Assembly: GCF_000384375.1 (NCBI RefSeq) | Contig: NZ_ARVX01000001.1 | Coordinates: 744,001 to 808,000 of the forward strand | Length of the DNA stretch: 64,000 nt | From: Methylotenera versatilis 79 | GTDB taxonomy: Bacteria > Pseudomonadota > Gammaproteobacteria > Burkholderiales > Methylophilaceae | Direction of reading: 5' to 3' | Shown here: in pieces, positions 2,276-24,453 of the stretch | How positions within the stretch are numbered: the first letter of the stretch is position 1 | Layout of the letters: each line of letters opens with the position of its first letter | Notes under the pieces: model-generated | The model's database searches: none | The model's input: only the letters and a program-made list of their open reading frames with translations | Told to the model about the DNA's origin: nothing | Position numbers and translations under genes: made by a program

Positions 2276-2349
2276 ATCATAATTAAAATCGGAGAAAAAA
2301 CCTGTACGCAGTATGACGTATTAACGCATATTCACTGCTCGATTATCAT
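2276..2349. promoter_or_regulatory. Bidirectional activator site and divergent promoters
   Basis: The 16-mer TACGCAGTATGACGTA lies at 2305-2320 and fits the palindrome TACGYN6RCGTA. On the plus strand, 23 nt after it, is TATCAT (2344-2349), a -10-like hexamer in front of the TonB-receptor gene at 2377. On the minus strand, again 23 nt after it, is TATGAT (2281-2276) in front of the permease-kinase gene at 2200. The site would be centred near -43 of both promoters, a normal place for a class II activator. The same site and spacing recur at 4530, 22469 and 24409. Confidence 0.7.
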
Positions 2350-2376
2350 CAAAAAATCATTCATCTTAAGTAAGTT

Positions 2377-4449
2377 ATGGCCCGTAAAAACAAACCGTCG
2401 TTTTATTCAAGTGCATACCTAGTCTTATTATCTACAAACGTTCTCGCTGAATCATTTAATCTTGAGCAGATTCAATTTGAAAGTATTAAAACCGAAGATA
2501 TCAAAGTCACTGCCGTTCGCGAAAATTTAATCGGCATTGCGGATACCGCCAGCGAAGGCGTGATCAGTAACCACCGCATCAGTAATATCCCACACTCTCG
2601 CCCTGGTGAAGTGTTAGAGCAAGTGCCTGGCTTGATTGTTAGCCAGCATTCGGGCGATGGCAAAGCCAATCAATATTATTTGCGTGGCTTTAATCTCGAT
2701 CACGGTACCGATTTTGCCGTTTGGTTAGATGGTATGCCGCTTAATATGCCGACACATGCGCACGGCCAAGGTTATATTGATTCTAATTGGTTAATGCCAG
2801 AATTAATTGACAGTTTGGAATTTAAAAAAGGTGCTTATCATGCGGAACAGGGCGATTTTTCAGCAGCTGGCTCAACACATTTGCACTACGCCAAAACATT
2901 ACCGCAATCTATTGCAAAACTCACGCTTGGCAGTTATGGTTTTCAACGTTTGTTTAACGCAGGTTCGCAAGGTATCACAGATGGTCAATTTTTATACGCC
3001 GTAGAAGCACAAGGTTATGATGGCGCTTGGGATAATAGCCAAAATCTTAAAAAATTCAATGGCTTGCTGCGTTACAGCACGGGTACTGAAGAACATGGCT
3101 GGAATATCACGGCAATGGGTTATAACTCAAAATGGGATGCCACAGACCAAGTGCCAAAACGTGCTATTAACGCTGGCTTAATCAACCGCTTTGGCGCAAT
3201 CGACACCTCGGATGGCGGCGAAACCAGCCGATACAGCTTATCTGCCGATTGGCATGATGGCGTATGGCAAGCTAATGCTTATGCGATTCATTACAAACTG
3301 GATTTATTTTCTAACTTTACCTACTTTTTGGATGACTCAATAAACGGCGACCAATTTGAACAAGCCGATAAGCGCAATGTATTTGGCGGTGCAGTTATAC
3401 GCAGTTTTAATGCGAATATTGCAGACTTGGAAACCAGTCATCAAATCGGTCTACAAGGCCGTTACGATGATATTGGCAATGTCGGTTTGTATCGCACAGT
3501 TGCACGCCAACGCTTAAGCACAACCAGAGAAGATGCCGTAAAACAAGGCAGTGTTGGCTTATGGTGGCAAGGCAACTGGCAGATTTTGCCAAATCTACGC
3601 GCCAGCACGGGCTTGCGTGAAGATATTTATAAATTTGATATTGATAGCAATATCGCTGAAAACTCGGGTAAAGCGCACAGTAATATTTTCAGTCCAAAGC
3701 TGGGTTTAGCTTGGCAGGCATCCAAACAGCACGAGTTTTATGTCAATTGGGGACGTGGCTTTCACAGCAACGATGCTCGAGGCTCAACTATTCGTGTTGA
3801 CCCAGTTTCTGGCGATGCAGCTGAGAAAGTGAATCCTCTCGTAAAAGCTATTAGTAAAGAATTGGGCTGGCGCGCTAATCCTATTGGAAATTGGCAAACT
3901 ACATTGGCTTTATTTCAGTTGGATATTGACTCGGAATTATTGTTTATAGGCGATGCCGGTGCAACCGAAGCCAGCCGACCTAGCCGCAGAGTGGGCGTAG
4001 AGTGGACGAATTACATTCCTATCAATAGTTGGAGTTATATTGATGCTGACTTTGCCATCGCCCGTGCGCGTTTTAAAGATTCAGATGAAGTGGGTGACTA
4101 TATTCCTGGCTCAATCGCCAAAACGGCCTCTATTGGCATTGCCATCAATCATCCAAGCGGTTGGTCTGCCTCTACGCGTTTGCGCTATTTTGGGCCGCGC
4201 GCGTTGATAGAAGATAACAGTGTGAGATCGAATAGCTCGTTACTGACCAACGCGCGCATTGGCTACCAAATTAGTTCTAAAATCAATCTGTCGTTGGATA
4301 TATTTAATCTGTTTAACCGCAAAGTATCTGATATTGATTATCTGTATACCTCGCGCTTAAAAGGCGAAGCGGCTGATGGCGTAAAGGATATTCATACACA
4401 TCCCGTCGAACCAAGAATGGCAAGGCTTAGCTTGTCACTTGACTATTGA
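2377..4449 (+). CDS. TonB-dependent outer-membrane receptor
   Basis: This 690-residue protein starts with a signal peptide ending near the VLA at residues 22-24. A plug domain follows (about 60-170), with the usual pattern of a VPG turn and an LRGF motif, and then a long beta-barrel ending in an aromatic residue (LSLDY). TonB-dependent receptors bring scarce metals or metal chelates across the outer membrane, using energy from TonB/ExbBD. The ligand cannot be read from sequence. The position between a permease-kinase and a urease cluster, and the shared activator site upstream, make a nickel complex a reasonable guess, since urease needs nickel. The plug contains His-rich HAHGQG near residue 130. 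A remnant of a HupE/UreJ permease gene touches its 3' end. Confidence 0.9.
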   Translation: MARKNKPSFYSSAYLVLLSTNVLAESFNLEQIQFESIKTEDIKVTAVRENLIGIADTASEGVISNHRISNIPHSRPGEVLEQVPGLIVSQHSGDGKANQYYLRGFNLDHGTDFAVWLDGMPLNMPTHAHGQGYIDSNWLMPELIDSLEFKKGAYHAEQGDFSAAGSTHLHYAKTLPQSIAKLTLGSYGFQRLFNAGSQGITDGQFLYAVEAQGYDGAWDNSQNLKKFNGLLRYSTGTEEHGWNITAMGYNSKWDATDQVPKRAINAGLINRFGAIDTSDGGETSRYSLSADWHDGVWQANAYAIHYKLDLFSNFTYFLDDSINGDQFEQADKRNVFGGAVIRSFNANIADLETSHQIGLQGRYDDIGNVGLYRTVARQRLSTTREDAVKQGSVGLWWQGNWQILPNLRASTGLREDIYKFDIDSNIAENSGKAHSNIFSPKLGLAWQASKQHEFYVNWGRGFHSNDARGSTIRVDPVSGDAAEKVNPLVKAISKELGWRANPIGNWQTTLALFQLDIDSELLFIGDAGATEASRPSRRVGVEWTNYIPINSWSYIDADFAIARARFKDSDEVGDYIPGSIAKTASIGIAINHPSGWSASTRLRYFGPRALIEDNSVRSNSSLLTNARIGYQISSKINLSLDIFNLFNRKVSDIDYLYTSRLKGEAADGVKDIHTHPVEPRMARLSLSLDY

Positions 4450-4527
4450 TTAACCAGCCATCAGCAAATAGCCACCAACCAACATCATTCCGCACAATGC
4501 AGCATAAATAAAGTTGATCAGAAAAAT
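4450..4527 (-). pseudogene. 3' remnant of a hupE/ureJ-like permease gene
   Basis: Read on the minus strand, about 25 codons before the TAA at 4452-4450 encode a hydrophobic tail with CGMMLVGGYLLMAG at its end. This matches the tail pattern of the intact HupE/UreJ at 9824-10390 (CMILLGGYALL). The upstream part of the gene is missing: the conserved activator site begins at 4530, so the break is at about 4528. The DNA is clearly diverged from the intact copy, so it is not a recent duplicate. Its convergence on the TonB-receptor gene suggests that a receptor/hupE pair existed before the ureE-D cluster arrived here. Confidence 0.55.
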
Positions 4528-4529
4528 TG

Positions 4530-4575
4530 TACGTAATATGACGTATAGATTATGCCTTCAAGCTTTTACTATACT
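4530..4575 (+). promoter_or_regulatory. Activator site and promoter of the first urease cluster
   Basis: The 16-mer TACGTAATATGACGTA is at 4530-4545, followed 24 nt later by TATACT (4570-4575), a good -10 hexamer. Transcription would begin near 4582, just upstream of the ureE start. This is the second of four copies of the palindrome TACGYN6RCGTA. Confidence 0.65.
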
Positions 4576-4603
4576 TAACTCAAGTAAAACTAGGGTGATT
4601 AAT

Positions 4604-5059
4604 TTGATTACTTATACCAACATCATAGGCAGTAGCGCTCAAGAGGCTTACTCAGACAAACTTCATGATCTTGATCATGCAGATAAGTTAGATTTCATTA
4701 GTTTATCGAGCGACAATATTCAACGAAAAAGATTAAAAGTCGTTTCATATAAGGGCAAAGAATGTGGTATTGCATTACCGCGCGAACAAAAGCTTTACGA
4801 CGGCGCCATCCTAAGTTTAGCTGCTGATTACGCACTTGTCGTGCGTTGTGCAGATGCAAAATGGTTACGCTGTACGCCCATAGATAATGCCGCCGCATTA
4901 GAGCTAGGCTATTTTGCTGGCAATATGCATTGGTCTGTGCGCTTCGACAAAAATATTCTAGAAATAGCACTAAAAGGCAAACTTCAAGATTACCAAGAAA
5001 GATTGAAACATTTATGCATCGACGGTCGTATTACATTGGCACTTGATGATGCTCAATAA
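4604..5059 (+). CDS. ureE: Urease accessory protein UreE (nickel chaperone), cluster 1
   Basis: UreE hands nickel to the UreFGD-apo-urease complex. Evidence is mainly its place directly before ureF in a complete urease cluster, its size and its weak UreE-like pattern; sequence similarity to the second UreE of this window is low. The open frame runs back to 4514, but that would cover the promoter. I prefer TTG at 4604 (about 151 residues), which has AGGGTGA five bases upstream; GTG at 4595 is the alternative. It lacks the His-rich C-terminal tail seen in the cluster 2 UreE, so it may bind less nickel. The end overlaps the start of ureF. Confidence 0.75.
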   Translation: MITYTNIIGSSAQEAYSDKLHDLDHADKLDFISLSSDNIQRKRLKVVSYKGKECGIALPREQKLYDGAILSLAADYALVVRCADAKWLRCTPIDNAAALELGYFAGNMHWSVRFDKNILEIALKGKLQDYQERLKHLCIDGRITLALDDAQ

Positions 5060-5762
5060 CCACCTTGGATTAATGCTGAGCTTACAACACAGCGATTCAT
5101 TTTTCCCAAGTGGTGCAACTGCATTTTCATGGGGACTAGAATCCCTTAATCGCGACAAAATTATTAGCGATACAAAATCTGTATCGCATTATATAGAAAC
5201 ACAATTATTGCATCGCTGGGTAAGTTTTGACCAAGCCATTATTAGTGCTGCATGGTATGCATCTCAAACTATTGAGCATCGTTCTAATTCAAACTTGATG
5301 AAGATTTTTGAAATTGATGCATTTGCAGAGGCAATGACTTTATCAGAATCAGTCAGAACAGGGTCGCGCAGACTCGGTCAAACATTGATGACTGTACACG
5401 TAAAATTAGGCACTCCAAGTGCTATTAAGTTACATGCGCATATTGTTGCAAACGCTAACACGCACTACCCACATCTTGCAGTCACCCAAGGCTATCTATG
5501 GGCTAAATTAGGAGTGAGTGAGCTAGAGTCCCGTGCCATTTCAGCGCATACCCTTTGTACCAGTGCGACAAGTGCAGCACTTAGGCTGGGCTTAATAGGC
5601 CATATTGATGCACAGCGCATTCTTATGCACATGCATACACAGATTGTTAAGGCGCTTGATTTGCCTGCACCAGCATTATCGAATATTTCATCAAGTACAT
5701 TAGCTGTTGATATCGGTAACTTACGTCACGAAGCGCTTGATGCAAGAATGTTCGCCAATTAA
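5046..5762 (+). CDS. ureF: Urease accessory protein UreF, cluster 1
   Basis: UreF acts as a scaffold or GTPase-gating protein that links UreD-bound urease to UreG during nickel insertion. The family signature near the N-terminus is clear: a run like LQHSDSFFPSGATAFSWGLE, the usual D-x-x-x-P-x-G-x-x-x-S-x-G-L-E pattern. Length (about 238) is normal. ATG at 5046 or 5049 are both possible; each overlaps the ureE stop (5057-5059), which points to translational coupling. The gap to ureAB is 21 bases. Confidence 0.88.
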   Translation: MMLNNHLGLMLSLQHSDSFFPSGATAFSWGLESLNRDKIISDTKSVSHYIETQLLHRWVSFDQAIISAAWYASQTIEHRSNSNLMKIFEIDAFAEAMTLSESVRTGSRRLGQTLMTVHVKLGTPSAIKLHAHIVANANTHYPHLAVTQGYLWAKLGVSELESRAISAHTLCTSATSAALRLGLIGHIDAQRILMHMHTQIVKALDLPAPALSNISSSTLAVDIGNLRHEALDARMFAN

Positions 5763-5783
5763 TTTTAAATCTCGAAAGTTGTT

Positions 5784-6482
5784 ATGTTATTAACCCCAAC
5801 TGAATACGAACGCCTCACTTTATTTGGTGCAGCTGAGCTTGCGCGCAAACGACTTGCCAAAGGGTTAAAACTTAATTATCCAGAAGCTGTTGCTATCATT
5901 TCAGATGAGCTATTAGAAGGTGCCAGAGAAGGCAAGTCAGTGGCTGAACTGATTGGATATGGATCAACCATTCTCAATCAAGATGATGTCTTGTCTGGCA
6001 TTGCAAATATGTTACCGATGCTACAAGTAGAAGGTTCTTTTCCCGACGGGACCAAACTCATCACAGTACATGAACCTTTACGGCCAGGGTTACAAAAACC
6101 AATTGAGAACTACCGCATTCCAGGTGAAATCATTACCGCAGAAGGTGATATAGAATTAAATGTTGGGCGCTTACGTGCCACCGTTAAAGCAATGAATATG
6201 GGAGATCGCCCGATACAAATCGGCAGTCATTTTCATTTTTTTGAAGTTAATCGTGCATTGCAATTTGAAAGAAATTTGGCATACGGCATGCATTTAGATA
6301 TCCCGGCTGGTACTGCGGTGCGTTTTGAGCCTGGAGATGAAAAAACTGTTGAACTAGTGGCTTTCGGTGGAACACGTGAGATTTTTGGATTAAACAGCTT
6401 AGTCGATGGCCCGCTAGATCAAAGTGGTCAGCGTGAAAAAGCCTTAGAAAACGCACGCAATAATGGCTTTAGGGGTGCATGA
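5784..6482 (+). CDS. ureAB: Fused urease gamma/beta subunit, cluster 1
   Basis: This 232-residue protein joins the gamma subunit (residues 1 to about 100, starting LTPTEYERL and carrying KLNYPEAVA and [11 protein letters not shown]) to the beta subunit (about 110-232, with [19 protein letters not shown] and GTAVRFEPG). The fusion and the C-terminal extension ending [10 protein letters not shown] resemble Helicobacter UreA, not the separate UreA and UreB of most proteobacteria, which cluster 2 here has. It forms the structural core with UreC. Its stop overlaps the start of ureC (ATGA), so the two are probably translated together. The gene is intact. Confidence 0.95.
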
Positions 6483-8194
6483 TGGCAAAAATGTCACGGA
6501 AAGATTATGCAGCGATGTTTGGCCCGACGAAAGGCGATGCTGTGCGACTAGGAGATACTTCATTATTAGCAGAAGTTGAACATGATTTTACCGTTGCAGG
6601 TGATGAGTGTCTGCATGGTGGTGGTAAAACGCTACGCGATGGCATGGGGATGATGGGAGGCTTAGACAGTGCGCAAGGCTCACTGGATATGCTTATTTGT
6701 AACGCCCTTGTGATTGACCCTGTGTTAGGCATCATAAAAGGTGATATAGGCATTAAAGCTGGAAAAATAGTTGCTATAGGCAAGGCCGGTAACCCACAAA
6801 CGATGGAAGGTGTTCATCCAGATTTGATTTGTGGGGCCGCCACAACAGTACGTGATGCCGAAGGTATGATTGCCACGCCTGGTGGCATTGACGTGCATGT
6901 GCATTTTGATTCAGCACAGCTTTGTGAGCATGCATTATCTTCAGGCCTGACAACGCTCATTGGCGGTTCATTAGGCCCCATTACAGTTGGCATTGATTGC
7001 GGAGGCGAGTGGAATGTTGCGCGGATGCACGAAGCATCTGAGCAATGGCCGCTAAATTTTGGTTTTCTTGGTCGCGGCAACTCTAGTAAACCGCTATCTT
7101 TAATTGATCAACTCCATGGTGGATGCCTTGGCCTAAAAATTCATGAGGACTGGGGAGCGATGCCTGCCGTGATTGACACTTGCTTAACAGTGGCTGACCA
7201 ATACGACTTCCAAGTGCAATTACACTCAGACACTTTAAATGAATCTGGATTTCTTGAAGATACTTTAGCTGCAATCAAAGACCGCACCATACACATGTAT
7301 CACACTGAAGGTGCGGGCGGGGGGCATGCGCCAGACATTATTGCTGTAGCAGGCAAAGAAAACTGTTTACCCTCTTCCACCAACCCAACTAATCCGTACA
7401 CCATCAATACTTTTGATGAGCATTTAGACATGATTATGGTTTGTCACCATTTAAACCCTGCAGTAGCAGAGGATGTGGCCTTTGCGGAATCTCGCATACG
7501 TGCACAAACCATTGCGGCAGAAGATATCTTACATGACATGGGTGCAATCTCTATGTTGGGGTCTGATAGTCAAGGCATGGGACGGATTAATGAAGTGATT
7601 AGTCGGACTTGGCAGTTGGCTTCTAAAATGAAAGATCAGCGTGGTCGACTACCTGAAGAAGCCAGTGCAATTGGAGATAACGAACGCATTAAACGCTACA
7701 TCGCAAAGTATACAATCAACGCTGCCCGTACTTTTGGCATTGCCGACACCATAGGTTCATTAGAGTCAGGAAAATTGGCCGACATCGTATTGTGGCGCCC
7801 TGCTTTTTTTGGGGTAAAACCTGAAGTCATCGTAAAAGGTGGTTTTATTGCTTGGGGTGCTATGGGCGATTCTGCAGCATCTCTCATGACGTGTGAACCC
7901 ATTGCAATGCGTCCTCAGTGGGGTGCTTTCGGAAAAGCACCTGCTTCCTTATCCGTTAATTTTGTAAACCAACTCGCCATTGATTCCGATTTGCGCAAAA
8001 AATTAGGGCTAACACGACAGCTGGTAGCGGCACACGGAACACGAAATCTAAAAAAACAAGACATGTTGCACAATAGTGCTTGTCCCAATATAACGGTCAA
8101 TCCACAAACATTTGATGTGATGGTTGATGGGAAAATCATTTATTGCGAGCCTGCGCACGAAGTACCCTTAAGTCGTCGCTATATGTTTAGGTAA
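6479..8194 (+). CDS. ureC: Urease alpha subunit (catalytic), cluster 1
   Basis: UreC carries the di-nickel site that hydrolyses urea to ammonia and carbamate. All expected metal and catalytic residues are visible: HVH (His140, His142), the carbamylated Lys in GLKIHEDWG, His in [11 protein letters not shown], His in [13 protein letters not shown], Cys-His in MVCHHLNP, Arg in ESRIRAQT and Asp in GSDSQGMGR. Length (571) is normal. It differs clearly from the second UreC here: the segment after the first His pair has [16 protein letters not shown] where classical ureases have a [10 protein letters not shown]...CTPGPW pattern. This divergent lineage fits the fused gamma/beta partner. Start is ATG at 6479, or 6482 in the same frame. 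Confidence 0.96.
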
Positions 8195-8198
8195 TACT

Positions 8199-8849
8199 AT
8201 GAATAATTTAGCTACCCCTCCTTTCAGTGTCACAAGCTTAGGTTCTGCGCGCGTGGGCATTGGCGGCCCAGTAGGTTCTGGTAAAACCAGATTATTGGAA
8301 CAGCTCATCCCCATTTTACAAAATAGAGGCGTTAATTTTGCCATTATTACTAATGACTTAGTCACGCGTGAGGATGCAGAACGCATCAAACGTAGCGGTC
8401 TTATTGATACGGCTCGGGTACTGGCTGTGGAAACAGGCGCCTGCCCGCACACCGCCATTCGAGAAGACCCAACGCTTAACATGCAAGCAGCAGATGAATT
8501 AGATAAAAAATTTGCTGGCCTAGAACTAGTTCTCATTGAGTCTGGAGGTGATAACTTAGCATCTTCATTTTCATTAGACTTAGTCGACTATTGGATTTTT
8601 GTCATTGATGTAGCGGCTGGTGATGATATACCCCGTAAGCGTGGCTTAGGCGTTGTAACTTGCGATTTACTTGTCATTAATAAATTTGATTTAGCGCCTT
8701 ATGTGAATGTTGACCTGACCCGTATGGTAAAAGAGGCCAACGAAGTCAGAAATGGCAAACCAGTAGTATTAACTAACTGCGCAACAGGAGAAGGCGTTAG
8801 CGAAGTTGCTGAAAGTATTATTGCTAGTGTACTGTTCCAAAAAAACTAA
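8199..8849 (+). CDS. ureG: Urease accessory GTPase UreG, cluster 1
   Basis: UreG is the SIMIBI-class GTPase that carries nickel and powers urease activation. The P-loop GGPVGSGKT is at about residues 22-30, the nickel-binding Cys-Pro-His appears in [14 protein letters not shown], and ESGGDNL and NKFDLAP are the later nucleotide motifs. Length is 216. It is a diverged paralogue of the UreG at 10400-11062: the [13 protein letters not shown] stretch replaces [13 protein letters not shown]. It sits four bases after ureC and three bases before ureD. Confidence 0.94.
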
Positions 8850-8852
8850 CTT

Positions 8853-9770
8853 ATGCCACTAGCTGAAGCAAAATCCCCACCTATTAACGCTACTTCTATA
8901 GGCCTAATTATAGAACAGCAACGAAAGGAAATGGCTACACCTCAAGTTAATTTACAATTCAGCTTAAGCCCAAAAGGAATAAGCTACTTATCATTACAAC
9001 TTGCCAAATATCCCTTTCACGTAGGTAGGCTACTCAAAAATTCAAGTACTCCCGAAGAGATGGCCATGCTGTTTTTACAATCTACATCTGGAGGATTATT
9101 TGAGCACGATCGCATAGGTCTAAAAATCACAGCAAAAACAAAAGCAGTAGCTTCTGTAAAACATGCAGCAGCCACTGTTGTTCACAGCATGCAACAAGGT
9201 CAAGCAATATCACGCCTGAACATTGTTGCGGAAGTTGGATCTTACCTTGAGTACACAGGCAACCTAAACATTTTGTTTCCTAAAAGCAATCTAGTTAACC
9301 AGATTGATGTTGAGCTTCACCCTAATGCAATAACGCTAATCTCTGATGCTTACTTAGTCCACGACCCTGAACAACAAGCTAACTATTTTGAACAATTAGA
9401 TACAACGATTAACGTGTATAACCATCATCATCAATTACTCGTCAAAGATCGTTTCTTACTCAGCGGCGTACAATTAGCTAGTCAGTTGCAAGCGGTTGAC
9501 AAAAAGTTTGATACTCACGCCAGCCTTTATTTACTTACACCAAACTGCACAACTGAGGAAAACGCAGTCTTGCTAAAAATCATTAACGAATCAATAACGA
9601 ATGCTGAACTCAGCAAAAAAGAGGCTTATTTCGGTTCAGGTATTTTACCCAACCAATGTGGTGTATTTGTACGCCTGATGACACGCAGCGGTCAATCTAT
9701 ACAAAAACTAAACAATGAAATAGCTAATAAACTTAGAAATACCTACCTTAAAGGCATCGACAAATCTTGA
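8853..9770 (+). CDS. ureD: Urease accessory protein UreD, cluster 1
   Basis: UreD (UreH in Helicobacter) binds apo-urease first and opens a path for nickel. The 305-residue protein keeps family patterns such as LLFLQSTSGGLFEHDRIG-like (residues 70-90) and a late GSGILPNQCGVFVRLM stretch, but is otherwise quite different from cluster 2 UreD. The first 26 residues are weakly conserved in type, so a start at the internal Met at about 8931 is possible. It is the last gene of the plus-strand urease operon. Confidence 0.85.
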   Translation: MPLAEAKSPPINATSIGLIIEQQRKEMATPQVNLQFSLSPKGISYLSLQLAKYPFHVGRLLKNSSTPEEMAMLFLQSTSGGLFEHDRIGLKITAKTKAVASVKHAAATVVHSMQQGQAISRLNIVAEVGSYLEYTGNLNILFPKSNLVNQIDVELHPNAITLISDAYLVHDPEQQANYFEQLDTTINVYNHHHQLLVKDRFLLSGVQLASQLQAVDKKFDTHASLYLLTPNCTTEENAVLLKIINESITNAELSKKEAYFGSGILPNQCGVFVRLMTRSGQSIQKLNNEIANKLRNTYLKGIDKS

Positions 9771-9823: not shown

Positions 9824-10390
9824 TTAAAGCAAAGCATAGCCACCTAGCAATATCATGCAAAGTGCCAAAACATTTTGTATATATTGAAAAACTTTAGTGT
9901 GTAAAGTGCCAATTAGAATACCAACACCATGCAATAGAGCCGTTGCTATTAACATTCCAGTCATTACATTTAATCCAGACTGCATATTAAGTTCCACTCC
10001 ATGTGCCATGCCATGAAATATGGCGAATAGAGAAACAAGGCCTAAACGAATCGAAGCATTGATGGGTAAATTAACCATCAATAATAACCCCATTGCCATC
10101 ACACTTGCAGCAACACTCGTTTCAACACCAGAGAATCGGTATCCTGTAAAGCTTAAAATAAAGCCTAAAATCATGGATAAACTAAAAGCTAGCGGCAACT
10201 TCCAGCATGCTTTTTCATCAGTTTTAACTGCCCATATTCCCACGGCAACCATCACAAGTAGATGATCCCAACCCGTCAAAGGGTGCATAAAACCTGCGTA
10301 TGCGCTCTCCAAACCATGTCCTGGATGAGCAAAAGCCAGACTTGAAAAGCCCAACAATAAAGCAGTACTTAACGATAGATATTTTTTCAC
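9824..10390 (-). CDS. ureJ: HupE/UreJ-family nickel permease
   Basis: A small membrane protein (188 residues) with a signal-like first helix ending AFAHPGHG, then about six membrane segments. Family marks are HPLTGWDHLLVMVAVGIWA (residues 36-54) and FHGMAHGVE (about 123-131), where conserved His and Asp residues are thought to bind metal. HupE/UreJ proteins import nickel for hydrogenase or urease. It is the last gene of the urt-ure operon on the minus strand, nine bases after ureG. A second, broken copy is at 4450-4527. Confidence 0.9.
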   Translation of the reverse strand: MKKYLSLSTALLLGFSSLAFAHPGHGLESAYAGFMHPLTGWDHLLVMVAVGIWAVKTDEKACWKLPLAFSLSMILGFILSFTGYRFSGVETSVAASVMAMGLLLMVNLPINASIRLGLVSLFAIFHGMAHGVELNMQSGLNVMTGMLIATALLHGVGILIGTLHTKVFQYIQNVLALCMILLGGYALL

Positions 10391-10399
10391 ATTACTCTC

Positions 10400-16350: not shown

Positions 16351-17094
16351 CTAATGGCCTAGGTACACTTCAATGACTTTTTCATCTGCTTGCACTTTGT
16401 CCATCGCACCTTCTGCCAGAATCTTGCCTTGGTGCAATACAGTGACTTTATGTGCGATTTTTTTCACAAATTCCATATCATGCTCAATCACGATCACAGA
16501 ACGGTTTTTGCAGATCTTATTCAATAAATCCGCCGTTTGGTCGCGCTCTTTCGCACTCATGCCAGCGACTGGTTCATCCAGCATCAACAACTCTGGGTCT
16601 TGCATCAGCAGCATGCCGATTTCCAGCCATTGTTTCTGCCCATGACTGAGCAACGCCGCTTCCATGTCCAGAAAATCCGTTAACATGATTTCATCGGCAA
16701 TTTTTTTAACCTGCGAAACCACTTCTTCTGAACGTTTGAAAAACAAGCTGCCCCAAACACCACGACCTTTTGGATAAGAAACTTCCAGGTTTTGATATAC
16801 CGACAGATTTTCGTAGATAGAAGGCGTTTGGAACTTACGCCCTACACCAGCACGTACGATTTCGTGCTCTGATAATTTAGTCAGCTCAGTATTCCTGAAC
16901 TTGATAGAGCCTGAGGTGGATTTTGTTTTACCGCAAATCAAATCCAGCACGGTGGTTTTACCTGCACCGTTTGGGCCAATCACTACACGTAACTCGTTTT
17001 TATCGATATACATGGTCAGGTTATCAACCGCTTTAAAACCATCAAACGATACCGTTAAATCTTCAATCGCTAGGACAAAGTCTGTGTTGCTCAT
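16351..17094 (-). CDS. urtD: Urea ABC transporter ATP-binding protein UrtD
   Basis: The second Urt ATPase, LivG type, 247 residues. Walker A is GPNGAGKTT, followed by a GVGRKFQTPSIYENLSV stretch typical of UrtD. The signature region reads LSHGQKQWLEIGML instead of LSGGQ, which is usual for UrtD, and Walker B is LLMLDEPVAGMS. Its start overlaps the end of urtC by four bases. Confidence 0.95.
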   Translation of the reverse strand: MSNTDFVLAIEDLTVSFDGFKAVDNLTMYIDKNELRVVIGPNGAGKTTVLDLICGKTKSTSGSIKFRNTELTKLSEHEIVRAGVGRKFQTPSIYENLSVYQNLEVSYPKGRGVWGSLFFKRSEEVVSQVKKIADEIMLTDFLDMEAALLSHGQKQWLEIGMLLMQDPELLMLDEPVAGMSAKERDQTADLLNKICKNRSVIVIEHDMEFVKKIAHKVTVLHQGKILAEGAMDKVQADEKVIEVYLGH

Positions 17095-18266
17095 GCTTTT
17101 GCTCCCATCTCTTTAATCTCGTTTGCAGGTATTACTTCCGCTGTTTTTACAGGCGCTAAAGCTAAAGGTTCTGTGTCAGATAGTTTGCGTAAAAATTTAG
17201 ATTTCTTCGCGTACTTTTCATAGATTCCAGCTAAACCATTGGGGAAAAACATCACCACAGCGATAAACAAGCCGCCCATTAAGAATAACCATAATTCAGG
17301 ATAGGTTTCTGAGAACACGGTTTTGCCGTAGTTAACCAACAACGTGCCGTAAACCGCGCCAATCAAGGACATACGGCCGCCAACCGCGCAAAAGATCACC
17401 ATTTCAATGGATGGCACGATGCCGACAAATGACGGTGACATAAAGCCAACTTGCAAAGTGAACATCGCACCACCGACTGCTGAAATCATGGCTGCTACAC
17501 AGAAGATGAATATCTTGAAATTCGATACGTCGTAGCCAGAAAAACGTACGCGCTCTTCTTTATCGCGCATGGCTAACAGCAACATACCGAACTTACTATT
17601 CAAGATGTATTTCGACAGCAAGATTGAGCCAATTAACAAAATACCGTTGAGGTAATAAAGAATGTATTTAGCGCTATCGGTGCGCGTATCCCAGCCCAGC
17701 ACAGTTTTAAGGTCTGTAATACCGTTAACTCCGCCTGTTAGGCCTTGTTGACCAACGATTAAGATACTTAGAATCAACGCAATCGCTTGGGTAATAATCG
17801 CAAAATATACACCGCCCACGCGACGCTTAAACATGGCAAAACCAATGAAATAAGCAAACAAAGCCGGTATCACTAATATCGCCAAGATGGTCAAAGGCAG
17901 ACTTTGGAAAGGATGCCAAAACCAAGGTAGCTCGGTGATTTGGTTCCAATCCATAAAATCTGGAATACCTGGCGTGGTTTGGATTTTGGTCGTAATCGGA
18001 TCTGAGGCTTCTAGCTTCATGAACATCGCCATGCCGTAGCCGCCTAAGCCGAAGAAGATACCTTGGCCTAAACTTAAAATACCGCCATTACCCCACAACA
18101 ACACTAAACTCACCGCCACAAAAGCGTAGGTTAAGTATTTTCCCACCAGATTCAATCTGAAAATATCGACGCCTAGCGGCAGTACGACGAATATCAAGGC
18201 GGCTAACAATGCGAGTCCGATTGCGCCCTGCTTACCGCCAACTAATTTACTTAAGGATGCATTCAC
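17091..18266 (-). CDS. urtC: Urea ABC transporter permease UrtC
   Basis: A 391-residue inner-membrane permease of the LivM type with about ten hydrophobic segments. Recognisable stretches are LVLLWGNGGILSLGQGIFFGLGGYGMAMF, GGVYFAIITQAIAL and GLTGGVNGITDL. It pairs with UrtB to form the channel of the urea importer. The C-terminal 40 residues are hydrophilic. It begins 15 bases after the urtB stop. Confidence 0.94.
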   Translation of the reverse strand: MNASLSKLVGGKQGAIGLALLAALIFVVLPLGVDIFRLNLVGKYLTYAFVAVSLVLLWGNGGILSLGQGIFFGLGGYGMAMFMKLEASDPITTKIQTTPGIPDFMDWNQITELPWFWHPFQSLPLTILAILVIPALFAYFIGFAMFKRRVGGVYFAIITQAIALILSILIVGQQGLTGGVNGITDLKTVLGWDTRTDSAKYILYYLNGILLIGSILLSKYILNSKFGMLLLAMRDKEERVRFSGYDVSNFKIFIFCVAAMISAVGGAMFTLQVGFMSPSFVGIVPSIEMVIFCAVGGRMSLIGAVYGTLLVNYGKTVFSETYPELWLFLMGGLFIAVVMFFPNGLAGIYEKYAKKSKFLRKLSDTEPLALAPVKTAEVIPANEIKEMGAKA

Positions 18267-18281
18267 GTTAATTCTCCCGTT

Positions 18282-19199
18282 TTATTTGCGCAATTTAGAT
18301 GCGAACAAGCCTTCTGGCTTCATCATCAATATGCCGACAATCACTAGCAAAGTAGTCACCTTGCCCATTGAACTGGTCATAAAGAATTGAAGGATTGATT
18401 GTGCTTGTGCGATACCGAAAGCGGATGCAATCGTACCCATTAAGCTAGCTGCGCCACCGAACACCACGACCATAAAGCTATCTACAATATAAAGCGTACC
18501 TGTGGTTGGGCCTGTAGAAGCAATGGTGGTAAACGCTGCACCAGCGACACCTGCAATGCCGCAACCTAAAGCAAACGTCACGCGATCTACTTTTTTGGTA
18601 TTGATACCAACTGCACCTGCCATCACACGATTCTGCACAGTCGCACGCACTCTTAAACCCCAGCGTGAGCGATACATAAAGATATAAACACCTGCAGTCA
18701 CTAACAATGCCAGAACCATCACAAAAACGCCGTTAATCGGAATATCAATATCGGGCGTTGGCTTAAATGAGCCTAACATCCATTCTGGAAGTTCAGCGCT
18801 CATCTCTTTCGCGCCAAAACTGGAACGAAATGCCTGTTGCATCACCAAACTCAAACCCCATGTTGCCAATAAGGTATCTAAAGGTCGCTTATAGAGATGC
18901 CGAATCATGATGAATTCGACAAAATATCCCAGCGCAAAGGCTAAGATAAACGCCAACACGATGGCAATGAGAAAGTAATAATTGACAAAACCATAAGTGG
19001 CTGCCACTTTTGACAGCATCACTGTTGTGTACGCGCCTATGGTCATAAACTCACCATGCGCCATGTTAATCACGCCCATTTGGCCGAAAATAATGGCAAG
19101 ACCTAATGCCATGAGTAGCAGCACTGTAAACATGCTCAGGCCAGAAAACCCCTGCATGATCATAATATTGCCTATATCACCCATTGAATAACCAAACAT
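18282..19199 (-). CDS. urtB: Urea ABC transporter permease UrtB
   Basis: A 305-residue LivH-type permease. It has GLAIIFGQMGVINMAHGEFMTIGAY near residues 32-56, LATWGLSLVMQQ, and RVRATVQNRVMAGAVGINT, all typical of UrtB. It is the short form without the periplasmic N-terminal extension that many proteobacterial UrtB proteins have. A good ribosome site (AGGAGG) precedes the start. A stem-loop in the 112-bp gap separates it from urtA. Confidence 0.93.
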   Translation of the reverse strand: MFGYSMGDIGNIMIMQGFSGLSMFTVLLLMALGLAIIFGQMGVINMAHGEFMTIGAYTTVMLSKVAATYGFVNYYFLIAIVLAFILAFALGYFVEFIMIRHLYKRPLDTLLATWGLSLVMQQAFRSSFGAKEMSAELPEWMLGSFKPTPDIDIPINGVFVMVLALLVTAGVYIFMYRSRWGLRVRATVQNRVMAGAVGINTKKVDRVTFALGCGIAGVAGAAFTTIASTGPTTGTLYIVDSFMVVVFGGAASLMGTIASAFGIAQAQSILQFFMTSSMGKVTTLLVIVGILMMKPEGLFASKLRK

Positions 19200-19263
19200 A
19201 TGGCCTCCTACTTAATTACTACTAAAAAATAATGTTGCTGCTACGCTTATTCACTTGCAGACT

Positions 19264-19289
19264 GCGACAGCCTATATCTAAGCTGCCGC
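19264..19289 (-). other. Stem-loop between urtA and urtB
   Basis: On the minus strand GCGGCAGC and GCTGTCGC form an eight-pair stem (one G-U) around a ten-base loop. No T-run follows, so it is more likely an RNA-stabilising or partial-stop hairpin that raises urtA expression over the rest of the operon, as is common after binding-protein genes. Confidence 0.5.
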
Positions 19290-19311
19290 GTCTTTAAACT
19301 AACTTAATAGA

Positions 19312-20556
19312 CTATTGATAACCTTTTGGGAACGGATCTGGTTTGATGTAGCCAGATGTGTAAACAATCTTAGCTTGACCATCTTTTTGCCACTGACCGA
19401 TACGCAATTTGGTTGTTAAGTGGTGATTTGCTTCCACAGTCACAGGGCCTTCTGGCGCATCTTTAAGTACATAACCAGGTAATGCAGCTTGCACTTTATC
19501 TACATCAAAACTACCAGCACGCTCAACAGCAGCTTTGTATAACCATGGGCCTAAATATGCGGCTTGTGTTACATCACCAATCACAGATTTATCACCCCAT
19601 TTCTTTTTGAATTCCGCAACAAATTTCTTGTTGATCGGTGTATCAATCGATTGGAAGTATTTCATTGCAGAATAGAAGCCAGCTAAGTTCTCACCACCAA
19701 TGCCTAACACTTCATCTTCAGTCACTGAAATAGTTAACATGGTTTGTTTAGCAGAATTTAAACCCGCTGCATTCAATTGTTTAAACCAAGCCACATTACT
19801 ACCGCCCACTACCGCTGCGTAAATCACGTCAGGTTTTTTCAGTTTGATTTTGTTAATCACAGAACCGAATTGTGTATCACCCAACGCAATGTATTCTTCA
19901 CCGACGACTGAGCCTTTTAGGTTTTTCTCAATATGTTTACGCGCGATTTTCATTGAAGTACGCGGCCAGATGTAATCAGAACCAATCAAGTAAAAAGTTT
20001 TGGCTTTTTTCTCTTTTGTAATCCAATCCAACCCGGCAATAATTTGTTGAGTCGCTTCTTGGCCTGTGTAGAACACGTTTTTAGATTGCTCTAAGCCTTC
20101 GTAGAACGTTGGGTAAAATAACAAGCCGTTTTCTTTTTCAAACACTGGCAGCGCCGCTTTACGTGAAGCTGATGTCCAGCAACCCATAACAGAAGCGACC
20201 TTGTCTGATGCCAATAATTTCTTGGCTTTTTCAGCAAATGTTGGCCAATCAGAAGCGCCATCTTCTTGGATCACTTCAATCTTGCGGCCTAAGATACCGC
20301 CCAAAGAGTTGATTTGGTCAATGGCTAATTTTTCAGCTTGAATCGAACCTGTTTCACTGATGGCCATCGTGCCAGTCGCTGAGTGCAAGATACCGACTTT
20401 TACCACCGTATCCGTTACAGCTAAACCTGTCGTATTTACTTTTGCTGTTGGATAATCTGCAGCAAATGCGTTAGTTGTAATTAAGCCAGCGGCTAGTAAT
20501 GCGCCGACTAGCGCGCCACCCACTTTCATAAAGCCACGTCTGTTCAAAGTACTCAT
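19312..20556 (-). CDS. urtA: Urea ABC transporter substrate-binding protein UrtA
   Basis: A 414-residue periplasmic binding protein. The N-terminus STLNRRGFMKVGG is a twin-arginine signal followed by a hydrophobic helix ending NAFA, so it should be exported folded by Tat. The mature part begins with VGILHSATGTMAISETG, typical of UrtA/FmdD among branched-chain amino-acid-type binding proteins, and contains IQEDGASDWPTFAEKA and GCWTSASRKAALP. FmdD, an amide-binding relative, is the main alternative given the fmd genes next door. It is the first gene of the urt operon. Confidence 0.92.
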   Translation of the reverse strand: MSTLNRRGFMKVGGALVGALLAAGLITTNAFAADYPTAKVNTTGLAVTDTVVKVGILHSATGTMAISETGSIQAEKLAIDQINSLGGILGRKIEVIQEDGASDWPTFAEKAKKLLASDKVASVMGCWTSASRKAALPVFEKENGLLFYPTFYEGLEQSKNVFYTGQEATQQIIAGLDWITKEKKAKTFYLIGSDYIWPRTSMKIARKHIEKNLKGSVVGEEYIALGDTQFGSVINKIKLKKPDVIYAAVVGGSNVAWFKQLNAAGLNSAKQTMLTISVTEDEVLGIGGENLAGFYSAMKYFQSIDTPINKKFVAEFKKKWGDKSVIGDVTQAAYLGPWLYKAAVERAGSFDVDKVQAALPGYVLKDAPEGPVTVEANHHLTTKLRIGQWQKDGQAKIVYTSGYIKPDPFPKGYQ

Positions 20557-20660
20557 TACGATCTCCTAATATTAAAAAAACCACCATTTATGACAAAATA
20601 AAACCTAACTACTTAACCTGCTAAACACTTTAAAAACTTACTTTTCACCCATTTAATTCC

Positions 20661-20676
20661 TACGTTTAATTGCTCA
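20661..20676 (-). promoter_or_regulatory. Degenerate copy of the activator site upstream of urtA
   Basis: On the minus strand TGAGCAATTAAACGTA matches the consensus read from the four better sites at 11 of 16 positions and lies about 105 bases before urtA. Only one half-site is intact, and the -10 candidate (TAAGTT, about 20 nt on) is weak. It may be chance. Confidence 0.25.
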
Positions 20677-20716
20677 AATTAACTGGTTAACTCCTTAATA
20701 TTTCATTGCTCAATAT

Positions 20717-21055
20717 CTAATGCGATAACATCCAAGGTCTTGCTGTCTTTTTGGTTTGCATTTGCAAAGCCGCCTTACCTGTTTCCTGGTTCACTTTTGT
20801 GCTTGTTTTGCACGTATGTGATCCAGCACAACCGCAACTTGAACGTTTCGCTACTTTTGGATCATGCGCAGATTTTTCATTTCGCTCATGTGCCACACGC
20901 TGTGTTTTATCCATTACCGCTAAGCGAGGCGCAGACATAATGCGTGGGCTTTCGCAACCACATTCATCACAACATGCTGGCTCACTCGATTCACTCATTT
21001 TTCTAAGCGCAGTAAAAACACCGCAGGTATCACATTCATATTCATAAACTGGCAT
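20717..21055 (-). CDS. fmdB: FmdB-family zinc-ribbon protein
   Basis: A 112-residue protein starting MPVYEYECDTCGVF, with a second CDECGCESPR pair: the zinc ribbon of the FmdB family, thought to be regulatory. A third Cys group (CGCAGSHTC) lies near residue 75, followed by a basic tail. In Methylophilus the fmdB gene likewise follows fmdA, the formamidase gene; the exact role is unknown. It is 11 bases after fmdA, so it is probably co-transcribed. Confidence 0.9.
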   Translation of the reverse strand: MPVYEYECDTCGVFTALRKMSESSEPACCDECGCESPRIMSAPRLAVMDKTQRVAHERNEKSAHDPKVAKRSSCGCAGSHTCKTSTKVNQETGKAALQMQTKKTARPWMLSH

Positions 21056-21066
21056 GCCATCACTCC

Positions 21067-22290
21067 TTAGCTAGTTTTAGCAGTATCAATGCCTTGCTTG
21101 ACCATCACTTTAGGTCCGTCCGCATTTGGCTTCATATCAAAGTCAAATATCTCTGTCGGTAACCATAAAGTCGCACATGCATTCGGAATATCGACAATGC
21201 CGCTGATATGGCCTTCGATTGGTGCTGTGCCTAAAATCGACAGAGCTTGCGCGCCGGTGTAGCCAAATTTCTTCATATACTCAATGGCGTTTAAACAAGC
21301 TTGGCGATAAGCTTCATTTACATCTAAGTAAAGCTGCTTGCCTTGTTCGTTAACTGAAATGCCTTCAAAAATGATGTAGTCTTTATAAGTTGGTGTGAGC
21401 ACGCTAGGTTCGAAAATTGGATTTTTAACGCCATATTTCTTCACGCCATCTTTAATTAAGCTGACTTTGATATCTAAATAACCGGCCATCTCAATCGCGC
21501 CGCAGAACGTAATTTCGCCATCGCCTTGTGAAAAGTGCAGGTCGCCCATTGAAAGGCCACCGTCTTTTACATACACAGGGAAATAAACCTTTGAACCTTT
21601 GGTTAGATTTTTGATATCGCAATTACCACCATGCTCACGTGGCGGCACAGTACGCGCACCTTCAAGCGCCGCTTTTGCAGCAGCATCGCCAGACATTTTG
21701 CCCATCACAGCTGATTTTGGATTTGGTGGCAATGCTAAACCTGGCACGCGATCTGGCTCGGTTGCAATCAAATCACCTTCACGTTTATTCCATGTGTCTA
21801 ATAGCTCTTTTGAAGGCAAGCAGCCAATTAAACCTGGATGCATAATGCCGGCGAATTTAACATTTGGCACATGACGTGAAGTGGTATAAATACCGTGAAA
21901 ATCCCAAATCGATTTACGCGCTTCAGGATATTGGTCAACTAAGAAACCGCCGCCATTTTCTTTAGCGAAAATACCGTTAAAACCCCATTGGCTCTCTTCA
22001 AATGTGCCAACATCTAAAATCTCAACCACCATTAAATCGCCTGGCTCCGCACCTTCAACACCAATCGGGCCGCTTAGATAATGCACTTGCGTTAAATCGA
22101 CATCACGTACATCGTTGGCGCTGTCGTTATTGCCAATCTGGCCGCCAGTCCAATCCATACATTCCACGCGGAATTCGTCGCCCGGTTTTACCATGGCAAT
22201 CATGGGTAAATCTGGGTGCCAACGGTTATGAATCTGGCCGTCTTGTTCCCAAGGTTTTTTGTCTAAATCTAACTTAACTAATGTTTTCAT
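21067..22290 (-). CDS. fmdA: Formamidase (acetamidase/formamidase family)
   Basis: FmdA hydrolyses formamide to formate and ammonia; a methylotroph can use both, the ammonia for nitrogen and the formate for NADH. The 407-residue protein has the family stretches NRWHPDLPMIAMVKPGDEFRVE, YLSGPIGVEGAEPGDLMVVEI and MGDLHFSQGDGEITFCGAIE. ATG at 22290 has a strong GGAGGAAACAA upstream; the longer frame is not needed. A copy of the conserved activator site with a -10 lies about 150 bases upstream. Confidence 0.95.
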   Translation of the reverse strand: MKTLVKLDLDKKPWEQDGQIHNRWHPDLPMIAMVKPGDEFRVECMDWTGGQIGNNDSANDVRDVDLTQVHYLSGPIGVEGAEPGDLMVVEILDVGTFEESQWGFNGIFAKENGGGFLVDQYPEARKSIWDFHGIYTTSRHVPNVKFAGIMHPGLIGCLPSKELLDTWNKREGDLIATEPDRVPGLALPPNPKSAVMGKMSGDAAAKAALEGARTVPPREHGGNCDIKNLTKGSKVYFPVYVKDGGLSMGDLHFSQGDGEITFCGAIEMAGYLDIKVSLIKDGVKKYGVKNPIFEPSVLTPTYKDYIIFEGISVNEQGKQLYLDVNEAYRQACLNAIEYMKKFGYTGAQALSILGTAPIEGHISGIVDIPNACATLWLPTEIFDFDMKPNADGPKVMVKQGIDTAKTS

Positions 22291-22439
22291 TTGTTTCCTC
22301 CAACTTAAATTCAGTGACATTCAAAAATTACAATCAACAGTAAGTTTCCTCACTCTTTAAAAACCGCTGTGTTTAAGGTCTTTAAAGTATTTCAAAGAAG
22401 ACTCGTGGTTAATAATTCAATGAGTTTTTCTATATGCTT

Positions 22440-22484
22440 AGATTAGTGATGCAGAGGGATGATTGAAATACGTCAAAGTGCGTA
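22440..22484 (-). promoter_or_regulatory. Activator site and promoter of fmdA
   Basis: The minus-strand 16-mer TACGCACTTTGACGTA (22484-22469) is followed after 23 nt by TAATCT (22445-22440). The stretch between site and -10 is similar to the fmdC promoter at 24380-24424 (the CCCTYTGC and TAATCTA words are shared), so the two promoters look homologous. In the plus direction the hexamer at the same spacing (TGAACT) is poor. Confidence 0.65.
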
Positions 22485-23080: not shown

Positions 23081-23106
23081 AAAGCCCAAACGTTAATTTG
23101 GGCTTT
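23081..23106. terminator. Rho-independent terminator between convergent genes
   Basis: AAAGCCCAAA (23081-23090) pairs with TTTGGGCTTT (23097-23106) around a six-base loop. It lies just past the fmdC stop codon, and the two hairpins in this 112-bp gap separate the two convergent transcripts. Confidence 0.7.
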
Positions 23107-23137
23107 AGCTGTGGTTAAAACTGACTTACGCTAAGAA

Positions 23138-24295
23138 TTAGAACTGGAATTGCAATGCGACATTGATTGCGTTGATAGAATCAGCATCCGACACTTTTGT
23201 TTTTGAAATAGCTGCTGTGATCAAAGCGTTGTACGGCTCAATAATATAGTTAGTACCAATCTCATATTTCTTTGTTTCGCCATTTACAAATGCTGTGGTA
23301 GTCGCATCTGAATCAAACTTTTGATAGCGCGCAAATGGCATAAATTGACCCCAACCAGCTTTTGCATTAAACAAATATGCTACGCCAGCTGAGTAGGCCT
23401 TACCTTGTTCACTTAAGAAAATGTCGTCTGTGTCGTAATCATAATAAGCCGCTTCTGCTGAGAATGTACCTGGTCCTACATTTTTCTTCTCTAGCAAAAA
23501 GTCTACGCTGTAAGAAGTGTAATCACCTGCAATACCTGGCACTGCAACCACGCCATCTTTTTTGCTGCGGCCTGCAATACCTATGGCTAAAATATCTTTC
23601 GCACCGAAGTAGTTACCCGTGCCGTAATAACCCGGTTCAGCATCCCAAAAGTCATATTGCAATCGGCCTGCATACATTAACTTGTCTTTAGTACCTTGTG
23701 TTTCTGATAACGCAGTAATGCCCGGGCTAAATCTAAAAATATTATCGCCTTCAAACGCACCGAATGAGTAGGCTAATTTGCTATCAAACGCGCTACCAAC
23801 AAGCGCAACACCTTCATCACGGCCAATAATACCGCCGTTCCAGCCGTAGCGAGAGGCGATATTAGACCAATAACCACCGCCCATTGAGTAATAAGGACCC
23901 GCCATATTGGCACGATCACTCGGGGATAAGAAGCGACCTGCCCAAATGGCGATATCATCTGTTAATTGAAACTGTACATTGGCATCAATTATTTCAATGT
24001 TACCGCCCGCGCCACCACCTGATTTTTCAGTATTTAACATACCTTTAATATATTTGTTCATTGAACCAGAAATGTAGATACGCGCACTGTCCAAAGAGAA
24101 ATCGTTTGAGCGATCACTACCATTTGCAGCGCCATCTTCTACACTGCTATAACTACCAATTGCCCCGAAACCAACACTGATGTATTTATCTTCACCAAAT
24201 GTAATGGTTCCAGCCGCTTGTGCTTGAATCGCTGAAATACTCAATGTTGCTAATACTGCTGATGTGAGTAGACTTTTTTTCAAAATTAAATTCAT
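23138..24295 (-). CDS. fmdC: Outer-membrane porin FmdC-like (amides/urea)
   Basis: A 385-residue beta-barrel porin. ATG at 24295 gives a clean signal peptide (MNLILKKSLLTSAVLATL..., cleaved near AQA-AG); the longer frame is rejected. The mature part is rich in alternating beta strands and Gly/Tyr and ends INVALQFQF, with the C-terminal Phe required by the barrel assembly machine. In Methylophilus, FmdC is a porin for short-chain amides and urea. Its location beside fmdA and its matching promoter support the same role here, but the name rests on context and general type, not on an alignment. Confidence 0.8.
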   Translation of the reverse strand: MNLILKKSLLTSAVLATLSISAIQAQAAGTITFGEDKYISVGFGAIGSYSSVEDGAANGSDRSNDFSLDSARIYISGSMNKYIKGMLNTEKSGGGAGGNIEIIDANVQFQLTDDIAIWAGRFLSPSDRANMAGPYYSMGGGYWSNIASRYGWNGGIIGRDEGVALVGSAFDSKLAYSFGAFEGDNIFRFSPGITALSETQGTKDKLMYAGRLQYDFWDAEPGYYGTGNYFGAKDILAIGIAGRSKKDGVVAVPGIAGDYTSYSVDFLLEKKNVGPGTFSAEAAYYDYDTDDIFLSEQGKAYSAGVAYLFNAKAGWGQFMPFARYQKFDSDATTTAFVNGETKKYEIGTNYIIEPYNALITAAISKTKVSDADSINAINVALQFQF

Positions 24296-24379
24296 TTCTA
24301 TGCCCCTATAGATTGATAACAGTTGTAAATACTTAATAGCTAGCGCATCCAGCATTTCAGATGCATTTGTCATGTGGCT

Positions 24380-24453
24380 AGATTAGCGATAGCAAAGGGC
24401 GAGTTAAATACGTCATATTGCGTAGTCAATTCTAGGGAGATTAGTCGTATATT
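24380..24453. promoter_or_regulatory. Bidirectional activator site between fmdC and a lipoprotein gene
   Basis: The plus-strand 16-mer TACGTCATATTGCGTA is at 24409-24424. On the minus strand, 23 nt away, is TAATCT (24385-24380), which would serve fmdC. On the plus strand, again 23 nt away, is TATATT (24448-24453), which would serve the lipoprotein gene at 24503. This is the second site in the window with matched -10 hexamers on both sides. Confidence 0.68.

Follow-up and report, generated by a model that had tools for sequence, protein, structure and literature searches.

A palindrome at fixed promoter spacing and its probable link to an NCS1-like hybrid kinase: a predicted urea and amide regulon in Methylotenera versatilis and other Betaproteobacteria

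The urea and formamide genes of Methylotenera versatilis 79 lie close together in a 64,000-nt stretch of contig NZ_ARVX01000001.1 (positions 744,001 to 808,000; hereafter, the window), and several of them are preceded by a 16-bp palindrome, TACGYN6RCGTA, with a -10-like hexamer at a nearly constant distance from it. We consider it highly probable, from conserved site, spacing and gene linkage, that this palindrome is the operator of an NCS1-like hybrid histidine kinase and the adjacent response regulator, a protein with receiver (REC) and LuxR/GerE domains, and that it serves to activate a urea and amide regulon. Of the possible regulators, the one encoded beside this permease-kinase, just outside the window, is on the same grounds the most likely to act at these sites. 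The consensus of the palindrome is TACGTCAWWTGACGTA, in which TACGCAA is frequent as one half.

Exact matches to the pattern occur at 2305, 4530, 22469 and 24409, just where a preliminary description of this DNA had placed them, and nowhere else in the window; dinucleotide shuffles of the same sequence contain 0.16 exact sites on average, and none of 100 shuffles reached four. A search of the window with one mismatch allowed returned six sites against 4.4 expected, which is no informative excess, and so only the exact pattern is informative. The sites at 2305, 22469 and 24409 are plainly intergenic, and that at 4530 lies inside a TTG-extended open reading frame (ORF), ureE, the real start of which is probably near 4595, after the -10 hexamer. 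All six hexamers named in the preliminary description are present, five at 23 nt from the palindrome and one at 24 nt. The + side of site 22469 has no -10-like hexamer at 23 or 24 nt, and a previously unlisted TATGCT stands at 23 nt on the - side of 4530, facing the 3' end of the TonB-dependent receptor gene where there is no gene to serve; a hexamer at this distance is therefore no proof of a promoter by itself. The six nucleotides that follow the site are, by eye, mostly TTT-, TTC- or TTG-like and not TTGACA.

The 2.60-Mb genome as a whole contains 12 exact sites, about twice the 6.5 scaled from the window shuffles, and enrichment of the bare pattern was looked for and not found, the reversed control giving 14; this control is commoner in itself, with 455 matches against 193 genome-wide at one mismatch, a level at which the genome-wide search is uninformative. 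Six of the eight sites outside the window fall inside ORFs. The preliminary description had named copies scattered without regard to promoters as evidence that would tell against a regulon, and here the outcome is mixed, there being eight further copies, mostly in genes, at near-background density. When 12 sites were placed at random, four fell inside 22.1 kb in 0.17% of simulations, and the genome-wide signal is one of clustering and position and not of the bare pattern.

Within the Methylophilaceae, the kinase is found in 50 of 187 genomes; a further 14 of the 64 matching genomes match in the kinase domains only and were not counted as having it. If a composite is defined as the site, 23 nt and TANNNT, it is present in 49 of the 50 genomes with the kinase and in 18 of the 137 without (Fisher p about 1e-28, ignoring relatedness), and, by hand sums, composite and reversed-control matches number 139 vs 54 with the kinase and 28 vs 91 without. 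Three of the 18 kinase-free genomes with a composite are incomplete and carry fmdA (G071, G131, G171). FmdA itself follows the same division, occurring in 46 family genomes, 43 of the 50 with the kinase and 3 of the 137 without, the latter three having completeness of 75-88%. Look-alike sites followed by CAGACG were seen in two kinase-free genomes, G117 and G129, and in the kinase-bearing G145; those in kinase-free genomes such as the first two were set aside, this arrangement being probably the operator of another LuxR-type regulator.

Forty of the 49 other kinase-bearing family genomes were used to compare loci. In 25 of the 40, the 260 nt preceding the kinase include an exact site, and in four more a site with one mismatch, of which that of L027 lies inside ureJ and is doubtful. 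The TonB gene beside the kinase is preceded by an exact site in all eight family rows that have it (two rows repeat a genome), and fmdA in 7 of 27 rows, many of the others having fmdA directly after fmdC. Site and spacing recur in relatives, which favours a regulon, and the earlier proposals of one regulon, a fixed spacing and a class II-like position are borne out to the extent that comparison of sequences allows.

The spacing is sharply defined. For sites outside the family we counted 139 site-orientations from 70 sites, after dropping duplicate flanks and, in the one subset of loci that was annotated, sites within genes; TANNNT occurs at offset 23 in 47 of these and at 24 in nine, and at every other offset from 5 to 43 in three or fewer. 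The specific hexamer TAATCT is confined within that range to 23 nt, where 23 of the 139 have it. In the family together with the first 30 kb of the window, with no rows dropped, TANNNT is at 23 in 43 of 78 site-orientations, and the next peaks are at 28 (21 of 78) and 33 (8); the peak at 28 comes mostly from one genus, in which a further TANNNT overlaps the first.

Beyond the family, a scan of GTDB genomes provided 80 kinase loci with up to 10 kb on each side, among which named records include Massilia, Duganella, Azonexus, Dechloromonas, Polaromonas, Variovorax and Denitromonas; ten belong to the family, several of them repeating loci already used, and were counted as family rows. The site and its spacing recur in these other Betaproteobacteria before fmdC, urtA and fmdA. 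Among rows outside the family, an exact site lies within 500 bp of fmdC in 9 of 11 (all 11 have a site before fmdC if one mismatch is allowed) and equally close to urtA in 16 of 29; 30 of the 70 loci have an exact site somewhere and 40 have none, many stretches ending before the urt genes. Genera with exact sites include Methylotenera, Methylophilus, Massilia, Duganella, Pseudoduganella, Azonexus and Dechloromonas, besides others.

Further evidence that the site tracks the kinase comes from 300 genomes of the order, in which the membrane domain of the kinase occurs in 49, UrtA in 119 and both in 46, so that UrtA is found in 46 of 49 kinase genomes vs 73 of 251 others. Regions upstream of urtA were compared in 79 of the 119 UrtA genomes: 39 of the 46 with the kinase (five family genomes, G253 and G416 being left out) and 40 of the 73 without, these being the highest-scoring listed. 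Of 40 regions from each group, reaching 2.5 kb upstream of urtA, 22 of those with the kinase contain an exact site and none of those without; the reversed control is found in three and one, respectively, and when only 600 bp are considered the regions with an exact site number 18 and 0. For the high-scoring urtA type alone, the site is present in 12 of 24 regions with the kinase, to be set against none of the same 40 without. In several genomes that have the kinase, another urtA copy is transcribed away from it; the 13 intergenic regions of this kind that were examined all contain the site, whereas it precedes none of six like-scoring (that is, lower-scoring) urtA copies in kinase-free genomes.

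Composites also precede further genes in some relatives. In Methylophilus-group genomes (g15) one stands before an aliphatic amidase gene, amiE (NCBIfam equivalog, 702 bits vs a cut-off of 427), and among the nine family genomes with this gene the site is exact in five, has one mismatch in two and is missing in two (g14). In genus g14 a composite precedes a gene for a CynX/NimT-type transporter, a tentative name for a match below the curated cut-off; the site is exact in five of six genomes and has one mismatch in the sixth. A -10-like hexamer is found at 23 nt from 9 of the 10 exact amiE and cynX sites, the cynX site of G055 being without one. With regard to the core of the regulon, seven family kinase genomes have no FmdA (G035, G038, G039, G046, G107, G072 and G152); in the first five, fmdC and urt genes are retained and the site separates fmdC from a lipoprotein gene, and the contigs of the last two are too short to judge. 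The common core is therefore urea uptake and hydrolysis, and the idea that urea and formamide genes form one regulon is supported as to the regulon, its centre being urea rather than formamide. One of the exact sites outside the window (L009, G000:C1:983986-987001, site at 1501) falls within the 5' part of a mechanical ORF, has TAATAT 23 nt away and precedes a MOSC-domain gene, whose nearest NCBIfam model is 6-hydroxyaminopurine reductase at a score below cut-off. Genomes G166, G167 and G143, all with the kinase, contain similar composites, and the MOSC-domain gene is a possible distant member of the regulon. Another (L010) is intergenic with a weak hexamer, TAACTT, at 24 nt.

A number of observations weigh against the reading that these sites are the operator of the kinase-linked regulator. 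The bare pattern is near background genome-wide; the spacing rule is broken at site 4530, both by the 24 nt before ureE1 and by the hexamer that faces no gene; and the reversed control composite occurs in 36 of the 50 family genomes with the kinase, of which G152 (a 10.6-kb contig) has no composite at all. Of the 40 family kinase loci, 11 are without a site in front of the kinase and nine without any exact site in the stretch examined; in nine of the 11, the kinase gene lies behind a ureJ of the same orientation and may be transcribed by read-through. Outside the family, only 3 of 69 kinase rows show an exact site in the 500 bp upstream, and where ureA and the kinase are divergent, as in many Comamonadaceae, ureA is preceded by an exact site in none of 25 cases and by one with one mismatch in six; autoregulation is therefore not general. 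No exact site was found in the stretch examined at 43 of the 80 kinase loci, many of which are on short contigs or without urt genes. Similarly, 18 of the 40 urtA regions from kinase genomes have no site (two are shorter than 450 bp); of the genomes concerned, 11 carry it at a kinase-linked urtA and G301 in a second region, and G227, G233, G263, G398, G410 and G456 remain without. The site is missing at amiE in two of nine genomes, and at cynX, for which 11 of 20 places were examined, it was found in none of five examined genomes of other genera. Finally, the M. versatilis genome encodes 11 GerE-type proteins, linkage and co-occurrence being the sole grounds for choosing this regulator among them, and related genomes are not independent.

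The whole kinase gene (L013:12748-16212, or G000:C1:742748-746212) encodes about 1145 amino acids, and its end is overlapped by the gene for the 315-residue regulator (L013:11804-12751), which lies outside the window. Pfam identifies HisKA, HATPase_c and receiver domains in the kinase, all three in each of 19 members, which makes these hybrid kinases, with His700 and Asp987 invariant in 19 of 19. The regulator, with Response_reg and GerE domains, is of the NarL/FixJ (LuxR) type; its Asp62 is invariant in 18 of 18, and much of its helix-turn-helix is conserved in the loci that gave a match, 78 of the 80. In G056 (C26:209552-212744) a kinase orthologue is in three pieces with stops, and composite operator sites are still nearby.

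The membrane part of the window kinase matches no Pfam family at E<=1. No transporter family appears among the 19 orthologues, nor an SSF match at E<=1, and the Pfam list contains neither PAS nor STAC families, the presence of a STAC model in Pfam being unconfirmed; a PDB sequence search gave no transporter among the best 60 of 355 matches, and Pfam and PDB searches aimed at the membrane domain were of no use, two of the lists comprising the best 60 of 272 and of 355 matches. Since sequence searches were uninformative, we turned to a structure model and a fold search. An AlphaFold model of the membrane domain from 22 sequences has a predicted template-modelling score (pTM) of 0.67, and the top five Foldseek matches are all CodB or Mhp1, both NCS1 transporters (E 1.6e-6 to 2.5e-5, TM-score on target 0.66-0.74, identity 15-17%, for a model with a mean predicted local distance difference test score of 68.7), SLC5-type structures ranking lower. 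The predicted likeness in fold to Mhp1 and CodB goes with low identity, and the domain differs from these transporters in having no Pfam match and in being fused to a kinase. The term 'permease-kinase', under which the preliminary description introduced this gene, is upheld by the fold of a predicted model but not by sequence family and, judged by that model and by the Pfam matches, the sensor falls outside the SLC5/STAC kinases. A Cys-rich linker (residues 513-550, L013), whose cysteines are invariant across genera, joins the membrane domain to the kinase part; it is possibly a metal or redox element.

In proposing how such a system would work, we envisage that urea or short-chain amides cause the kinase to phosphorylate the regulator, directly or via its own receiver, and that a regulator dimer would then bind the palindrome at about -51 to -36, touching a poor -35. 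This places the predicted centre of the site near -43 if transcription starts 6-7 nt after the hexamer. The dimer would replace the -35 contacts and recruit RNA polymerase to the -10 element 23 nt downstream, and in divergent regions one shared site would drive both genes. Targets would include uptake functions (the porin FmdC, the Urt ABC transporter and the TonB receptor), hydrolysis (ureases and formamidase, with aliphatic amidase in relatives), a CynX-type transporter in relatives and, in the family, the system itself. Urea or short amides are most likely the signal, because the named targets serve them and because urea and formamide induce the fmd genes of Methylophilus methylotrophus (PMC10781810).

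These proposed workings have an analogue in CrbS/CrbR (MxtR/ErdR; ACTU motif) of Pseudomonas and Vibrio, which likewise combines a transporter-like hybrid kinase with a LuxR-type regulator (PMC5715377) and whose operator geometry resembles the one predicted here. The CrbR site listed there, TACTACCATCGTCGAAT, is an imperfect inverted repeat that spans -52 to -36 relative to a mapped start and immediately precedes a sigma-70 promoter; by sequence, the order of site, 23 nt and -10 found here would fit such an architecture, our start positions being predicted only. The differences are equally clear: the inner bases of the half-site are of TACGAC type vs TACGTC (our own reading of the listed sites), the CrbS sensor has SLC5, STAC and PAS domains where we find an NCS1-like domain and a Cys-rich linker, and its targets are acetate genes (acs, actP) rather than urea and amide genes. 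Having found neither SLC5 nor STAC/PAS domains, we do not class the present system with CrbS/CrbR despite these like workings. RpuS/RpuR, which responds to pyruvate in Sinorhizobium, is also reminiscent in pairing an SLC5/STAC kinase with a LuxR-type regulator, in control of one transporter operon; however, its imperfect direct repeat lies at -80 to -43 (PMC9100948), and its sensor domain and target are different.

The gene order fmdC-fmdA-fmdB-urtABC of many family loci is that of fmdCABDEF in M. methylotrophus, a cluster with a putative positive regulator that we take to be FmdB. These genes are induced by formamide and urea and repressed by high ammonia, an induction attributed to Mills 1998 as cited in PMC10781810, where, in the available part, only a 'putative positive regulator' is named in the cluster. 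The account of fmdCABDEF in that part does not mention a two-component system, unlike our prediction. A table in PMC2907700 lists a 1131-residue histidine kinase and a 308-residue receiver protein near UrtA in Dechloromonas aromatica, probably the same system. Among the matches listed from open-access PMC, we recognised no description of such a urea two-component system.

It is the signal that leaves most room for an alternative. Nitrogen limitation or some other cell state might be sensed, with the NCS1-like domain acting as a transporter or anchor, and we regard this as possible, if rather unlikely. The named targets serve urea, small amides and, tentatively, cyanate, and not general nitrogen supply, for which NtrC-type control would be expected. 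Yet high ammonia also represses the fmd genes (PMC10781810), and in work on CrbS/CbrA activation was independent of transport through the SLC5 domain (PMC5715377), both of which would fit this alternative.

As to the protein bound, another LuxR/NarL-type regulator could recognise the palindrome, the linked kinase and regulator being simply among its targets; there are GerE-type proteins enough in the genome, CrbR (PMC5715377) is a LuxR-type protein known to use an inverted repeat of the same length and place, and the kinase rarely has a site of its own outside the family. Nevertheless, site presence follows kinase presence in two samples and the site recurs in every kinase-urtA intergenic region examined, so that losses and gains of a second regulator would have had to coincide with those of the kinase, and we think this improbable. 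Still less probable is that the bound regulator represses and the signal lifts repression: a site touching the -35 could also block polymerase, but the sequence after it departs from TTGACA, as expected of activator-dependent promoters, and the closest characterised case, CrbR, activates from a like position (PMC5715377). Chance palindromes in AT-rich intergenic DNA would account for the near-background density genome-wide and for little else; expectation in the window, conservation, spacing and dependence on the kinase already contradict this explanation, to which we give almost no weight. Activation by the kinase-linked regulator is the reading that we retain.

The genes that would be served in the window are given in Table 1. 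Those of the first urease cluster were named from sequence, except that ureE and the fused ureAB were identified by family search; the fmdA-fmdB-urtABCDE-ureDABCEFGJ genes are probably one transcription unit from the fmdA promoter. The two urease clusters (4514-9770 and 9824-15589) are adjacent. A fused-ureAB cluster was not seen as a separate cluster in 40 family loci, which carry relatives of the second, and the first may have been separately acquired. A PDB sequence search with the TonB receptor gave no match at E<=0.001, and any role in connection with nickel is therefore only a guess. Between fmdA and fmdC, a gene for a small Adhesin_E-type protein (PF16747; 22555-23025) adjoins site 22469. 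The small lipoprotein gene adjoins fmdC in most of L054, L055, L106, L124, L128, L298, L301 and L302, with an exact palindrome near these genes except in L128, which has no more than a one-mismatch site.

Table 1. Genes, palindromes and putative -10 hexamers of the predicted regulon, in window positions
Feature	Position	Strand	Basis or remark
Hybrid histidine kinase, N-terminal part	1..2212	-	gene cut by window edge
-10-like hexamer TATGAT, kinase promoter	2276..2281	-	23 nt from site 2305
Operator palindrome (predicted) TACGCAGTATGACGTA	2305..2320	.	exact match; common to divergent kinase and TonB-receptor promoters
-10-like hexamer TATCAT, TonB-receptor promoter	2344..2349	+	23 nt from site 2305
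TonB-dependent receptor	2377..4449	+	Pfam Plug and barrel
Urease cluster 1: ureE, ureF, fused ureAB, ureC, ureG, ureD	4514..9770	+	ORFs
Operator palindrome (predicted) TACGTAATATGACGTA	4530..4545	+	exact match; upstream of urease cluster 1
-10-like hexamer TATACT, ureE1	4570..4575	+	24 nt from site 4530
fmdA-fmdB-urtABCDE-ureDABCEFGJ	9824..22320	-	ORFs; FmdA and UrtA by family search, rest named from sequence
-10-like hexamer TAATCT, fmdA promoter	22440..22445	-	23 nt from site 22469
Operator palindrome (predicted)	22469..22484	between fmdA (-) and small Adhesin_E-type protein gene (+)	exact match
fmdC-type outer-membrane porin	23138..24373	-	NCBIfam porin_ExtI 92 bits, under cut-off 150; gene order as fmdCABDEF
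-10-like hexamer TAATCT, fmdC promoter	24380..24385	-	23 nt from site 24409
Operator palindrome (predicted)	24409..24424	between fmdC (-) and lipoprotein gene (+)	exact match
-10-like hexamer TATATT, lipoprotein promoter	24448..24453	+	23 nt from site 24409
Small lipoprotein	24503..25084	+	opposite fmdC in several relatives

A concrete sensor, regulator, operator and set of target promoters, in named genera, are now predicted for the fmd and urea genes. Taken at its broadest, the proposal is that an NCS1-fold permease has been turned into the urea or short-amide receptor of a hybrid kinase, which through one conserved operator would govern, throughout the Betaproteobacteria, the porin, ABC-type uptake, the urease, formamidase and amidase enzymes and cyanate-type transport, and which would represent both an undescribed class of sensor and the missing fmd regulator; we put this forward tentatively, with belief falling a little short of even. 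If true, a second transporter fold, NCS1-like, would join the group of transporter-kinases known for SLC5, and the system would explain how the use of urea is coordinated in many Betaproteobacteria.

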